From Phytoactinopolyspora mesophila (GTDB lineage Bacteria; Actinomycetota; Actinomycetes; Jiangellales; Jiangellaceae): 64,000 nt of DNA. Shown here piece by piece: positions 51,977-64,000 of the stretch; within the stretch, counting starts at the first letter, position 1, and every line of letters begins with the position of its first letter. The notes under the pieces were generated by a model. The model did not search any database. It was not told the origin of the DNA and saw nothing but the letters and a program-made list of their open reading frames with translations. Position numbers and translations under genes: made by a program. The DNA lies in assembly GCF_010122465.1 (NCBI RefSeq), contig NZ_WLZY01000006.1, positions 62,001 to 126,000 on the forward strand, read 5' to 3'.

Positions 51977-52055
51977 TCAGGTTGGGTGGTTTTTCTCGTC
52001 CGTCACCATGACTGCAGGCATGGTGACGCCCGAGAAAACCCACCAAACATGATCA
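51974..52055. repeat. Long intergenic hairpin with TGATCA ends
   Basis: Arms of about 26 bp (starting TGATCAGG and ending CATGATCA) are imperfectly complementary. An inner 9-bp perfect stem (52002-52010 with 52019-52027) sits within. It may terminate the racemase operon; TTTTT is present on the plus strand within the left arm. Confidence 0.7.
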
Positions 52056-52163
52056 TTCGGCAAAGGGGCGGCTTGTCGGATCTTCCGACAAACGCGCGAC
52101 ACCTCGTAGGATCGGACAACTCTCCGACGGGTCGGCAGCGGCTACGGTCAAGGAGTGTTGCCG

Positions 52164-59440: not shown

Positions 59441-59486
59441 AGCCTCGGGTTGCAGGACCTTACGCTGCGTCCTGCTGCCCGAGGCT
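59441..59486. terminator. Terminator after copB
   Basis: An 18-bp stem with two mismatches (AGCCTCGGGTTGCAGGAC with GTCCTGCTGCCCGAGGCT) lies 7 bp after the copB stop. Confidence 0.75.
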
Positions 59487-59562: not shown

Positions 59563-61545
59563 GTGGTGCCTGTGCCCATTTCGTCGCAACCAGGACAGGC
59601 CCTCGGGGCCAATGACCCCGCCCAGGTCGGCGGCGTCCAGCTCACCGCGGTACTCGGCAGAGGCGGCCAAGGATCGGTCTACTTGGGGCGGGCGTCGGGC
59701 AACCGGAACGTCGCCGTGAAGGTGCTGCACGACCAGCTAGTGGCAGATTCCATGGCGAGGATGCGTTTCATCCGTGAGGCCGAGATCGCGCAGCGGGTGG
59801 CGGCGTTCTGTACGGCACAGGTGCTCGATGTCGGGTTCGAGGCCAACCTGCCCTACGTGGTCAGCGAGTACATTGCCGGGCCTTCTTTGCAGCGGCTGGT
59901 CGCTGAGGACGGGCCGCGGACCGGAAGCAGCCTCGACCGGCTAGCCGTCACCACGTTGACCGCTCTGGCCGCGATCCATCGGGCCGGCATCATTCATCGA
60001 GACTTCAAGCCCGGAAACGTGATCATGGGCCCGGAAGGGCCGGTCGTCATAGATTTCGGTATCGCCCGCTTCGCCGGCTACCAGGTGACTACGGGCTCGG
60101 CCATCGTCGGCACTCCGGCCTACATCGCACCCGAGCAGATCCGCCACGAGCCGGCAGGTACCGGTTCGGACGTGTTCGCGTGGGCGGCGACGATGGTATT
60201 CGCCGCAACCGGGCGGGTGGCATTCGGCCGGGGATGCGCGTTGCCGGCGGTCATCCATGCGGTCCTGCACGAAGATCCGGATCTTTCAGCAGTGCCTGAA
60301 CGCATCCGCTCGCTGCTGGCTGAATCTCTGGTCAAGCAGCCCGATTCGCGACCCAGCGTGGAGCAGTTGTTGGGGGCACTCACTGACGACGAGGTGCACA
60401 GGGGCCAGCCGTTGTCACCGGAGCGCACATCAGGTGGCGCCCGGCCTGCGGTTGCCACTCCCCATCAGCGCGTGGGGGACGACGCAACGGCGCTTCGCGC
60501 GTCGCCGACGGACAACGTAGCGCGGCAGCGGCCGACCGAAGTCGTCCCGCTGTTCGGCCAGCCAGTCGGTGCCGCCTACACCGGCCATACCGCGGTGGTG
60601 ACCGCCCTGGCAGTTGACGACTCGCAGGGCAGACCCATCGTCGTCTCCGCTGATCTTGGCCAGACCATCAGGGCGTGGGACCTGGTCAGCGGTGAGCCGG
60701 TCGGGGCGCCGATGCGCGGACACGTCGACCGCATATCGACGATCCTTGTGACGGACATCGAGGGCCACCCGGTAGTCGTCTCCGGCGACTGGACCGGTCG
60801 GGTGAAGACCTGGGATCTCGCGACCGGCGCCTGTCTGCGTTCGTGGGACGACGAAGGTGAGATCGTGACGGTCGGCCGGTCGGACGGGCGCCCAATTCTT
60901 GTCCGAGGTGGCGGCACGGTCATCGAGGTATTCGATCTTTCGAACGGTGAACTGATCCGGCGGCCGCTGACGATTCCGTTTTATCACCATGATCCGGATG
61001 CGCGGCCCATTGTCAGTCAGCTAGCGGTCGCGGAGCTAGATGGCCGGCAGGTGATAGTAGCCGGGTGCCGTGCGGAGGCGGTGCTTCGCTGCGCGGCCTG
61101 GGTGTTCGATCTGGCATCGGGGGACCCCGTGCCCGCCCCGCGGCGGACGCTTGGAGGGTCGGTAGAGCTCATGGGGGTAGTCCAGCGTGACGGACAGCCA
61201 TTCGTGGTCACCTATGGCCGCACACCGGGACTTCGGCGGTGGGCGGTCCGGGTATGGAATCTCGTCACCGGTGAACAGCCGGTGAAACTCCAGCAATCGG
61301 CCACTCTGCGCCGCGCGGTGGAGTCGATGACGGTGGCGGAGCTGGGCGGTGGTCCCGCCGTGCTCGCCAGCGGAGAACGTTCAGTGCGAGTGTGGGACCT
61401 GGCCACCGGGAATCGAATCGGCGAGCCCATAGGGCAGCAGGCTGACCGGATCACGGCGCTGGCTGTCACCCAGGTAGCGGGATTCCCCGCCGTGGTAGCC
61501 GGCTGTGCCGACGCTTCGGTCCACGCTTGGAGCCTCGCACCTTAG
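59563..61545 (+). CDS. Ser/Thr protein kinase with C-terminal WD40 repeats
   Basis: About 660 aa; GTG codons at 59563, 59566 and 59572 compete as start. The kinase domain (about 20-265) is complete: VLGRGGQGSVYLG glycine loop, VAVKVL Lys, IIHRDFKPGNVIM catalytic loop, DFGIARFAG and IAPEQ. A linker leads to WD40 blades from about 335 on (IRAWDLVSGEPVG, VKTWDLATGACL, VRVWDLATGNRI). No membrane helix, so it is cytoplasmic. The following membrane protein, GTPase and GAP1-like genes lie on the same strand with short gaps. Confidence 0.92.
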   Translation: MVPVPISSQPGQALGANDPAQVGGVQLTAVLGRGGQGSVYLGRASGNRNVAVKVLHDQLVADSMARMRFIREAEIAQRVAAFCTAQVLDVGFEANLPYVVSEYIAGPSLQRLVAEDGPRTGSSLDRLAVTTLTALAAIHRAGIIHRDFKPGNVIMGPEGPVVIDFGIARFAGYQVTTGSAIVGTPAYIAPEQIRHEPAGTGSDVFAWAATMVFAATGRVAFGRGCALPAVIHAVLHEDPDLSAVPERIRSLLAESLVKQPDSRPSVEQLLGALTDDEVHRGQPLSPERTSGGARPAVATPHQRVGDDATALRASPTDNVARQRPTEVVPLFGQPVGAAYTGHTAVVTALAVDDSQGRPIVVSADLGQTIRAWDLVSGEPVGAPMRGHVDRISTILVTDIEGHPVVVSGDWTGRVKTWDLATGACLRSWDDEGEIVTVGRSDGRPILVRGGGTVIEVFDLSNGELIRRPLTIPFYHHDPDARPIVSQLAVAELDGRQVIVAGCRAEAVLRCAAWVFDLASGDPVPAPRRTLGGSVELMGVVQRDGQPFVVTYGRTPGLRRWAVRVWNLVTGEQPVKLQQSATLRRAVESMTVAELGGGPAVLASGERSVRVWDLATGNRIGEPIGQQADRITALAVTQVAGFPAVVAGCADASVHAWSLAP

Positions 61546-61634
61546 CCGCTTCTCCGGCGACACTCAGCATGGACAACGCGCCTGGTGCCCGGCATGCTTG
61601 AGTTTCCTTGATCACGTTCCTCGCGGGGGTGCCC

Positions 61635-62180
61635 ATGGTCGTCTTCGCTCTGAGCTTCCTGTTGCACGCCTTGCTCGTGCTCAGCGTTCTCGCTTTCATA
61701 TACCTGCTCTTCCGGCTCGTGACCCAACCCGGCGAACTCCAGGACCGCTATCTCCTCGCGGCGATGGTCTTGGTCGGCGGCATGGTTGACCTGGCGGTCA
61801 ACGCGTCCGGTGTGACTCTGGCCGGCGCTGCCGTCGACGGTTTGTCGGACGCGGGCGCACTCGGTGTGGTTCTCAGCGCCATCCCCGCCGCCGCTCTGGG
61901 AGGCGGAGTCGGATGGTTGGTGACCCGGCGACGTATCTGGAAAGACAAGAAACGCGTGGTGCGGATCCTGGTCTTCCTGGGCACCATAGCCACCATCGAG
62001 TTCATGCTCGTCTACGCCCACACCATTCAGGAGGAAGGGCTGTCCCTGGGTCCGTCGATCGTTCCGAACGTGGCCTTCGTCGTCACGGCCATCCTGTACC
62101 TCGCACTGACGTCCGATCCCGATCCCCGCACGCACACCATTCGACGACGAGGTCAGGATGGCCCGTTCATCCCCCGGTGA
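61635..62180 (+). CDS. Small multi-helix membrane protein of the kinase-GTPase cluster
   Basis: 181 aa from ATG 61635 (GGGGG upstream); a TTG at 61608 is possible. Four or five hydrophobic helices (VVFALSFLLHALLVLSVLAF, YLLAAMVLVGGMVDLAV, GALGVVLSAIPAAALGGGVG, IVPNVAFVVTAILYLAL) alternate with basic loops; the C-terminus is basic. No family is recognised. Its position 5' of the GTPase gene (13-bp gap) suggests a membrane anchor or sensor for the system. Confidence 0.75.
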   Translation: MVVFALSFLLHALLVLSVLAFIYLLFRLVTQPGELQDRYLLAAMVLVGGMVDLAVNASGVTLAGAAVDGLSDAGALGVVLSAIPAAALGGGVGWLVTRRRIWKDKKRVVRILVFLGTIATIEFMLVYAHTIQEEGLSLGPSIVPNVAFVVTAILYLALTSDPDPRTHTIRRRGQDGPFIPR

Positions 62181-62192
62181 CAGGAGTACGAC

Positions 62193-63413
62193 ATGCCCCA
62201 GCCACCGATGAACACCACGCGCACGTGCCCGTACTGCGGACGCGACATCGTGCTCGGCAAGCTTCCGGTCGTCGCTACGAACTTCGGCGACCGGCTGGCC
62301 GGGGAGCCTGTGGATCGGCCGGCCTCGGGCGCGGAGCCGCTGATGTGGATCGGCGACTGGCCCGTGGTGGCCGAAGCACCGATGATGTCGACGAAATCTG
62401 TGAGCCGGGGCCCTCTCGGACGGGCCCGCGACTCGTTTCGCGGCGCCATGCCGTTGCCACATCCCGCGGAGATGGCCGCGTTCGAAGACAGCCCGGCCCG
62501 GCTCTGTACCCACGACGCCTGCCTCACACCGCTGCCTGCCGAGATCGACACCGGACGGATATTCATCGTGCCTGTTGTGGGCACCGTCGCCGCCGGGAAG
62601 TCGAGCTATCTGACAGTTGTGCTGCACCAGGCGTGGCGAGAACAACGCCTCGCCCGGTTCGGTTTCGAGCAATTCACCCTGGACGAGGAGTCCGTCGAGA
62701 CGTATCGGCAGCAATACCACCGGCGGCTGTTCCGGAAAAGGGAGATCCTCCCAGGAACACAGTTCGACGAGGATGTGGCCAAGAAGCCCCTCGTATGCCG
62801 TGTTCAATACGAAGGCGCTGACCCTGCGCTGTTGTTCCTGCACGACATCGGCGGGGAGATGCTGATGGACAGGAGCATGCGCCGCCGTTTCGGTGGATTC
62901 ATCCGCCGGGCCGATGCCATCATCTTCCTGATCGATCCGGTCTGCCTCGATCGCCCGGACGGCCGTTCGTGGGCGGAATGCGGAGTTCTGCAGGCTGATG
63001 ATCTCGATTATCCCCAAGGCCCTTTGTTCCGGGCCTGCATCGAAGAGCTGGAATCGGGCCGCCGCACGCCTATCGCGGTGACACTCTCGAAATCCGATCT
63101 AGTAGCCGATGCACTGCCGGAGATCGGCCGTTTTCTCGTGGAACCCCCCAACCGGCAAGATCCAGACGAATGGAACCAAGACCTGTCGGATCTTGAACAG
63201 ACGGTGATCCGGGCGCTACAAGGTCTTTCGGAATGGGATTTGCTGAACGCTCAGCGGATGATCGATCCGGAACTGATCTCATTCCATGCGGTCGCAGCTC
63301 TGGGCACGAACCCGCAGAACGGAGAGATCGTCGACCTCGCTCCGCAGCGGTGTATCGATCCGTTGGCGACTGTCCTGTTCCGGATTCCCGCCCTGACCGA
63401 GCCCGCGTCGTGA
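62193..63413 (+). CDS. TRAFAC-like GTPase with N-terminal zinc ribbon
   Basis: 406 aa (AGGAG upstream). A CPYCGRD ribbon half (residues about 11-17) and a second Cys further on (LCTHDACL) start the protein. The GTPase domain has Walker A PVVGTVAAGKSSYL (about 127-140), DxxG in FLHDIGGE (about 216), and TLSKSD as the NKxD equivalent. It resembles the GTPases found next to GAP1-type proteins in predicted actinobacterial signalling or conflict loci. The last codons overlap the next start (GTGA). Confidence 0.8.
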   Translation: MPQPPMNTTRTCPYCGRDIVLGKLPVVATNFGDRLAGEPVDRPASGAEPLMWIGDWPVVAEAPMMSTKSVSRGPLGRARDSFRGAMPLPHPAEMAAFEDSPARLCTHDACLTPLPAEIDTGRIFIVPVVGTVAAGKSSYLTVVLHQAWREQRLARFGFEQFTLDEESVETYRQQYHRRLFRKREILPGTQFDEDVAKKPLVCRVQYEGADPALLFLHDIGGEMLMDRSMRRRFGGFIRRADAIIFLIDPVCLDRPDGRSWAECGVLQADDLDYPQGPLFRACIEELESGRRTPIAVTLSKSDLVADALPEIGRFLVEPPNRQDPDEWNQDLSDLEQTVIRALQGLSEWDLLNAQRMIDPELISFHAVAALGTNPQNGEIVDLAPQRCIDPLATVLFRIPALTEPAS

Positions 63414-64000
63414 AGCCACTCGATCAGCTGTTGTTCACGTGGCACGACGGAGGGTTCCGGCCGGTCGCCGCTACAGGTGATCTTGGTAAGCCGCGGAGCT
63501 GGCTCGCCGACCAGGCGCTACGGCTGTGCCGTTACTACCCGCCGGCGCACCTCGGCGCCGGCGTGCACGCGCCGATCTCATACGGGTGGTGGACCGACGG
63601 GTCCACTCGCTGGGTATTTCGCCGGGGTCATCTCGGAAACGACCCCACGGGCCGCCCCGGCAACTTTTTTGCGCATATCCTCGCCGGTCACCGTGATGCG
63701 TTGCCATTGACGGCCGTGGCTGGGCGCTTCGGGTCGTCACATTGGTGGGATGGCGGTCCGATACCGAAGCTTTGGGATCGGGTAGAGCTGGCGGACATCC
63801 CGCCCGCTACTTTGGAGCCGGTCAGTGGTGAGCAACTCGAGTCTTTCCTGACCACGGTGTTGCGTGGGCGCGGCACCACTTGTGCTGTTCTGCGTGAACC
63901 CCCGGCTGTGACTATCGCGTGTGTCGCGGTGATCAGCCGGCGATTGCCCGGTCTGCTCGATGGCCTGCAGTTCTCCACCTATGAGGCGCCACAGCACGCC
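63410..64000 (+). CDS. GAP1-like GTPase-associated protein (5' part, runs off the window)
   Basis: 197 codons from GTG 63410, open to the window end. It begins LDQLLFTWHDGGFRPVAA, then SYGWWTDGSTRWVFRRG and TGRPGNFFAHILAGHRDALP, which fits the N-terminal domain of GTPase-associated protein 1 (GAP1-N2-like). It is translationally coupled to the GTPase gene. The remaining domains lie outside the window, so the full architecture is unknown. Confidence 0.7.
   Translation, partial: MKPLDQLLFTWHDGGFRPVAATGDLGKPRSWLADQALRLCRYYPPAHLGAGVHAPISYGWWTDGSTRWVFRRGHLGNDPTGRPGNFFAHILAGHRDALPLTAVAGRFGSSHWWDGGPIPKLWDRVELADIPPATLEPVSGEQLESFLTTVLRGRGTTCAVLREPPAVTIACVAVISRRLPGLLDGLQFSTYEAPQHA

Follow-up and report, generated by a model that had tools for sequence, protein, structure and literature searches.

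Four adjacent plus-strand genes of the actinobacterium Phytoactinopolyspora mesophila, which encode a Ser/Thr kinase–WD40 protein, a small membrane protein, a DO-GTPase2 family GTPase and a GAP1-N2 protein, form one accessory unit that recurs in the genus. This four-gene cassette lies at the end of the stretch of DNA that was analysed (the window: 64,000 nucleotides, positions 62001-126000 of contig 6 of the 6.51 Mb genome), and coordinates beyond 64000 are given in window numbering extended past its end. The anatomy of the unit is observed and every interaction within it we infer; we rate the chances about even that the cassette is a self-contained membrane-side kinase–GTPase signalling switch. 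The features of the locus are as follows.

59563..61545, plus strand: Ser/Thr kinase–WD40 protein (Pfam Pkinase, E 1.1e-34, and WD40, both over cut-off; catalytic motifs; orthologues 68% and 54-55% identical)
61635..62180, plus strand: membrane protein of 181 amino acids with about five helices (start set by conservation; orthologues 86% and 75% identical)
62193..63413, plus strand: DO-GTPase2 GTPase (Pfam PF19993, E 2.7e-10; profile–profile comparison with hhalign, 99.6% to ten other DO-GTPase2 proteins)
63410..64000, gene end 65641, plus strand: GAP1-N2 protein (Pfam PF20013, E 5.3e-7; GTGA overlap; hhalign, 97.7% to seven other GAP1 proteins)
59441..59486, no strand assigned: long hairpin after the copB stop codon and before the kinase gene (RNA fold)

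One accessory unit in Phytoactinopolyspora

The cassette is intact, with its four genes in unchanged order, in Phytoactinopolyspora halotolerans and Phytoactinopolyspora endophytica. In P. halotolerans all four genes lie directly before valS, at the same site as in the window; in P. endophytica they lie on a different contig among unrelated neighbours, with valS elsewhere. The two other congeners lack all four genes, and copB is there directly followed by valS. Because the same four genes occur in order at two sites and are jointly absent from two congeners, they are one accessory unit. That four unrelated genes came to lie side by side by chance, as their unrelated families and the restriction of coupling-like overlap to the GTPase–GAP1 pair might suggest, is very improbable given this joint absence and the unrelated flanks of the two chromosomal sites.

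The four-part version was found only within Phytoactinopolyspora, in three of its five genomes. GAP1 was detected in three of the 22 genomes of the order, and the same three hold the GTPase and the membrane protein at very high scores. The WD40 region of the cassette is likewise present in these three genomes and absent from the same two congeners; the two carrying relatives also have other, weaker WD40 genes elsewhere. A scan of named genomes used two exact N-terminal peptides and therefore reaches close relatives only. The GC content of the cassette is near that of its surroundings and the GTPase identities to P. halotolerans and P. endophytica (89% and 79-80%) roughly track those of valS (88% and 84%), which fits an old residence in the genus. 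The P. endophytica gene before valS resembles the gene preceding the P. halotolerans cassette (by eye; both have a similar helix-turn-helix-like end), and the cassette was therefore either inserted in P. halotolerans or lost in P. endophytica at that site. Between copB and the cassette, P. halotolerans carries a minus-strand aldo/keto-reductase-like gene (by reading) and a gene of about 265 amino acids with a helix-turn-helix-like end.

Conservation differs strongly between the parts of the cassette. Identities to P. halotolerans and P. endophytica, respectively, are 93% and 83% for the G domain, 79% and 73% for the ribbon region of the GTPase, 86% and 75% for the membrane protein, 80% and 68% for GAP1-N2, 79% and 66% for the kinase domain, 65% and 49% for the WD40 propeller, 63% and 55% for the middle of GAP1, and 30% in both cases for the linker of the kinase protein. 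The helical C-terminal part of GAP1 is 49% and 48% identical, with 99 positions gapped in P. endophytica. Throughout the cassette of P. endophytica, assembly gaps hide some letters. The switch of the cassette is thus conserved, whereas its two arms, the WD40 propeller and the C-terminal helices of GAP1, vary.

Sequence and predicted fold of the four proteins

The first-pass annotation of this DNA had described one candidate system made up of a kinase–WD40 protein, a membrane protein of no known family, a GTPase with an N-terminal CxxC and a translationally coupled GAP1-like protein, on a GTPase–GAP1 core known from computational prediction. The family assignments are borne out by the profile hidden Markov model matches listed above, and the remaining points agree with the distribution just described, with the sequence features given below and with the main text of Kaur et al. 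2020 (PMC7159879), in which the core is indeed predicted.

The GTPase scores 40.8 bits against PF19993 (cut-off 27) and has the P-loop GTVAAGKS, the switch motif DIGGE and the motif SKSD. Its first 130 residues contain exactly four cysteines (C12-x2-C15 and C105-x4-C110), which are kept in all three cassettes and form one candidate zinc site. By Pfam, the P. mesophila genome holds one GAP1-N2, one DO-GTPase2 and 11 Pkinase matches, and a second, transmembrane-bearing DO-GTPase was not found in it. Searches of solved structures by sequence gave no match at E 1 for the GTPase or GAP1, and wider alignments gave nothing below E 0.05.

The GAP1 gene begins with a GTG at 63410, and its four-base GTGA overlap with the GTPase stop codon suggests that the two are translationally coupled. 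The full-length protein has 743 amino acids and ends at 65641, with its first 197 codons within the window. The match to GAP1-N2 (30.2 bits, cut-off 24) is partial, covering positions 19-105 of 139, and the hhalign match extends over residues 4-299 only. Pfam models of roadblock and longin domains did not match GAP1 at E 0.1. A structure model was built from the P. halotolerans sequence with a two-row alignment; its overall pLDDT is 54.2, and residues 1-110 have values of 38-56 per ten-residue block. In this low-confidence model the N-terminal elements run strand-strand-helix-strand-strand-strand-helix, which is the element order of longin domains. When the model was searched with Foldseek, nothing reached E 0.001; the Lst4 longin stood at rank 13 (probability 1.00, E 0.073, TM 0.44 on the target). 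VIA-align placed the Lokiarchaeal longin 8yqg at rank 34 (Z 6.9, 3.5 Å, 103 of 154 residues, 3% identity); a Z below 8 may reflect a common arrangement, and the entries ranked above the two longins are mostly helical repeats that match the C-terminal part of GAP1. This helical part resembles generic helical repeats (VPS35, importin-like).

Longin and roadblock domains represent an ancient GTPase-interacting fold, and DENN consists of a longin plus two further domains (Zhang et al. 2012, PMC3521125). We consider it rather unlikely, going by the model, that GAP1-N2 regulates GTPases as a bacterial protein of the longin type. If it were longin-like, it would be natural for GAP1 to regulate a GTPase, and GAP1 would consist of a longin, a middle alpha/beta domain and an extended helical arm, a layout that resembles the three parts of DENN. 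In that case the cassette would be a pared-down bacterial equivalent of the longin/DENN–GTPase switches of eukaryotes, subject to a sensor kinase and a membrane anchor. Such a fold would also give GAP1 a concrete biochemical role (GTPase-activating protein, guanine nucleotide exchange factor or nucleotide-state reader) in the 904 organisms with GAP1-N2 systems counted in the main text of Kaur et al. 2020 (PMC7159879).

The kinase–WD40 protein has 660 amino acids. The VAVK motif, whose lysine is K53, and the HRD and DFG motifs are all intact (motif check), and a variable linker joins the kinase domain to the C-terminal propeller, in which about seven WD-like blade ends can be counted by eye. 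PF00400 (WD40) matches with 28.4 bits (cut-off 27), and the larger propeller models of Pfam stay under their cut-offs. The gene starts with GTG here and in P. halotolerans and with ATG in P. endophytica. We ruled out that the protein is AfsK, because the AfsK model NF053615 gives 191 bits, far under its cut-off of 1300. No actinobacterial kinase–WD40 protein is known to have been described alongside a DO-GTPase.

The longest frame of the membrane protein begins with a TTG at 61608; the start was set at the ATG at 61635 because it is the sole start common to all three relatives. No Pfam or NCBIfam family matches over its cut-off (best NCBIfam score 19.3 bits, cut-off 100), and there is no PHROG match at E 0.1. 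The structure model, of low confidence (pLDDT 54.5), has five long helices and one short one. The protein carries a basic loop (RRRIWKDKKRVVR; TRRRIWKDKKRVVR between helices 3 and 4), from which the positive-inside rule for membrane-protein orientation predicts an N-terminus outside and a C-terminal tail inside. This tail, RGQDGPFIPR, is invariant in all three cassettes. The membrane protein was matched in four of 393 genomes of the class, three of them the genus genomes, and in four of 396 genomes of a phylum sample, P. mesophila among them. Matches beyond the genus are short segments in longer frames (E 7.5e-5 to 7e-4) and are probably hydrophobic chance matches. The idea that the protein is the split-off transmembrane part of transmembrane-bearing DO-GTPases found no support (hhalign 0.1%, from shallow alignments).

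Distant loci, a proposed switch and its rivals

Among the 393 class genomes a DO-GTPase was matched in 39 and GAP1 in 17 (E 1e-3; three of each are the genus genomes), and these counts are lower bounds because the three-row profiles are shallow and few candidates were scored per genome. We compared 40 distant places, i.e. 38 of the 41 distant DO-GTPase rows and two with GAP1 only (G390:C5, G338:C365 and G295:C37 were left out); gene calling at these loci is crude. Neither the WD40 part nor the membrane protein was matched in any of the 40 at E 1e-3.

The kinase fared differently. With the kinase domain of the window as query, five of the 40 loci had a kinase-like frame; with kinases from such loci as queries, 12 had a kinase-like gene (one, L090, among the first 20 loci and 11 among the second 20). 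Since this gene lies directly upstream of the DO-GTPase in nine of the 40, the kinase–DO-GTPase link is recurrent. All nine belong to a single family (f18) and are therefore not independent, and for scale each of their genomes, of about 5-11 Mb, has 34 to 91 Pkinase matches. In the other three loci (L094, L095, L097) the kinases are of one common type; L094 contains a kinase, a PP2C, a vWA (23.3 bits, cut-off 23.8), two DO-GTPase2 and a GAP1. DO-GTPase matches were also seen on plasmids, two distant ones in Rhodococcus with 27-28% identity. Corynebacterium glutamicum, one of 14 control genomes, was the only control with a match over the cut-off for GAP1-N2, and likewise for DO-GTPase2, so a tractable species carries the core pair.

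In the switch that we propose, the WD40 propeller of the kinase would read a cytoplasmic protein cue, and the kinase would then phosphorylate either (i) the cytoplasmic loop or tail of the membrane protein or (ii) the GTPase/GAP1 pair. The zinc-ribbon GTPase would act as the on/off element, docked at the membrane via the small membrane protein. The conserved N-terminal domain of GAP1 would contact the GTPase, as regulator or effector of its nucleotide state, and the long, fast-changing helical C-terminal part may grip a changing partner. Because no dedicated killing enzyme is encoded, the output would come either from the membrane protein or from a partner whose gene lies elsewhere. Several points weigh against this switch. 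Both the order of action and the phosphorylation targets are guesses; for the membrane protein, the model is of low quality and none of its relatives has a known role; Pfam does not detect GAP1-M or GAP1-C in the GAP1 of the cassette (E 0.1); and three distant kinases, judged by pattern matching, look degenerate, L105 having HRD without DFG and L110 and L094 lacking HRD (L106, with an arbitrary translation start, was not counted). Kinase activity is therefore not general for DO-GTPase loci.

The core pair has been predicted to act in biological conflict (Kaur et al. 2020, PMC7159879, main text). In a conflict or immunity role, the WD40 propeller and the GAP1 arm would recognise proteins of an invader or rival, the GTPase would license the response and the membrane protein would damage the membrane, which would agree with the patchy presence of the cassette (three of five genus genomes, at different sites) and with the rapid change seen in the putative recognition parts. 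However, the membrane protein is among the most conserved parts, unlike a swappable effector, the GC content is near that of the surroundings and the GTPase has no match among 50,697 phage records. Nor was an effector domain recognised in the four cassette proteins or in the neighbouring genes (two upstream, four downstream), although the membrane protein may be an effector of an unrecognised kind. An effector had been expected beyond the window; extension of the contig rules this gene out, because GAP1 is followed by valS, folC, a DUF4233 gene and a CpaB/SAF-type gene (Pfam). PADLOC-DB returned nothing for the membrane protein, the GTPase or GAP1 at E 1, and only kinase models (PD-T4-6, mad6, C3a189 and MkoA) for the kinase among the best 25 of its 34 matches. 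Upstream lie a P-type ATPase gene (copB by reading) and an IMP-dehydrogenase-family gene (Pfam), and open reading frames resembling Flp/Tad pilus genes (by reading) follow further downstream; the flanking genes examined are housekeeping, not defence. We regard a conflict role as possible but unlikely.

Two gene neighbourhoods recur among the distant loci with kinase-like genes. In the actinobacterial family f18 (L105:5206-14177, L102:1796-10574 and L101), a conserved set comprises a protein of about 254 amino acids, a kinase-like gene, a DO-GTPase2, an uncharacterised protein of about 810-890 amino acids and an FtsW/RodA–penicillin-binding transpeptidase fusion (full Pfam matches in L102 and L105, by similarity in L101), which suggests a wall-synthesis branch of DO-GTPase2 systems. 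In L110:7064-15730, L106 and L090, a tubulin-like gene (Tubulin_2 by Pfam in L110 and L090, by similarity in L106), a large uncharacterised protein, a kinase-like gene and a DO-GTPase2 share one neighbourhood. The FtsW/RodA fusion loci (L102, L105, L101), the tubulin-like genes (L110, L090) and the membrane component of the cassette would be consistent with a cell-envelope or growth-control module, in which the switch informs the wall-building or division machinery of the internal state. However, no gene for wall building or division lies in the cassette itself, the link being by analogy with distant loci only, and two of the five congeners lack the cassette and therefore grow without it; we consider such a module unlikely.

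Two hairpins flank the cassette. The segment 59432-59500, with the hairpin after copB, folds at -40.2 kcal/mol (z -4.2 against shuffles); the hairpin lacks a T run and could insulate the cassette from copB transcription. A promoter/terminator scan performed no better than on shuffled sequences. Between GAP1 and valS lies a near-perfect extragenic hairpin of about 84 bases (65700-65783), and the 111-base stretch that contains it folds at -78 kcal/mol (z -12.7). Another arm of this pattern occurs at 52043-52056 on the minus strand, and the arm pattern has 43 copies in the P. mesophila genome, four in P. halotolerans and none in three congeners, so that it looks like a species-specific REP-like (repetitive extragenic palindrome) family. 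At the empty copB–valS sites and at one locus of another genus, a palindrome of similar layout with partly different letters (by eye) precedes valS.

Comparison with known systems

The main text of Kaur et al. 2020 (PMC7159879) names the DO-GTPases and GAP1, splits GAP1 into N1 and N2, predicts conflict roles and ties the DO-GTPase/GAP1-N2 systems to multicellular bacteria, with loci that carry several further components. It describes FNIII partners, tubulin, HSP70 and kinase/PP2C/vWA themes, with two GTPases in 38% of DO-GTPase systems; WD40 occurs in it once, and FtsW, RodA, penicillin, transpeptidase, longin, roadblock and DENN do not occur. The only other open-access paper found to use the term DO-GTPase does so once, for phage-shock operons, with a predicted role in membrane stress. 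In the open-access literature, supplements excluded, we found predictions only for DO-GTPase/GAP1-N2 and no experiment on a four-part version, and no open-access paper joined kinase, WD40, beta-propeller, actinobacteria, GTPase and FtsW. The core is thus known so far from computer predictions alone, and in the cassette it is paired with an intact kinase–WD40 protein and a protein of about five transmembrane helices. The four-gene version is small enough to reconstitute and the cassette-free congeners are natural controls, so that the cassette could make testable what GAP1 does to the GTPase and whether the kinase controls the pair.

With MglA–MglB and the longin/roadblock regulators the cassette shares the combination of a GTPase and a presumed regulator, as well as the longin-like element order in the low-confidence N-terminal model of GAP1; it differs in that its GTPase is a DO-GTPase2 and its GAP1 has no Pfam roadblock or longin match. 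PkwA and AfsK have an N-terminal Ser/Thr kinase and a C-terminal beta-propeller, the same arrangement as in the kinase–WD40 protein of the cassette. In L094, which represents the kinase theme of Kaur et al., a kinase gene is clustered with DO-GTPase2 and GAP1, as in the cassette, whereas its kinase lacks recognisable catalytic motifs, PP2C and vWA partners are present, and Pfam recognises all three GAP1 domains in its GAP1.

Compared with the GAP1-N2 systems in the main text of Kaur et al., the cassette has a DO-GTPase2 directly upstream of GAP1-N2, N-terminal zinc-ribbon-type cysteines, a membrane component, an actinobacterial host and a kinase (their third theme). In contrast to those systems, it has a single GTPase with one candidate zinc site instead of the usual two, a GAP1 in which Pfam does not recognise GAP1-M and GAP1-C, a kinase that is fused to WD40 and keeps its motifs, a free protein of about five transmembrane helices, and no FNIII, tubulin, HSP70/GrpE, PP2C or vWA genes. 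An fn3 domain was not found in the cassette proteins (among the best 25 of 27 matches for the kinase, and at E 0.1 for GAP1), and the next gene is valS. Because it has no FNIII partner, one candidate zinc site and no recognised effector, the cassette is not a standard member of the GAP1-N2 systems but a variant built on the DO-GTPase/GAP1-N2 core.

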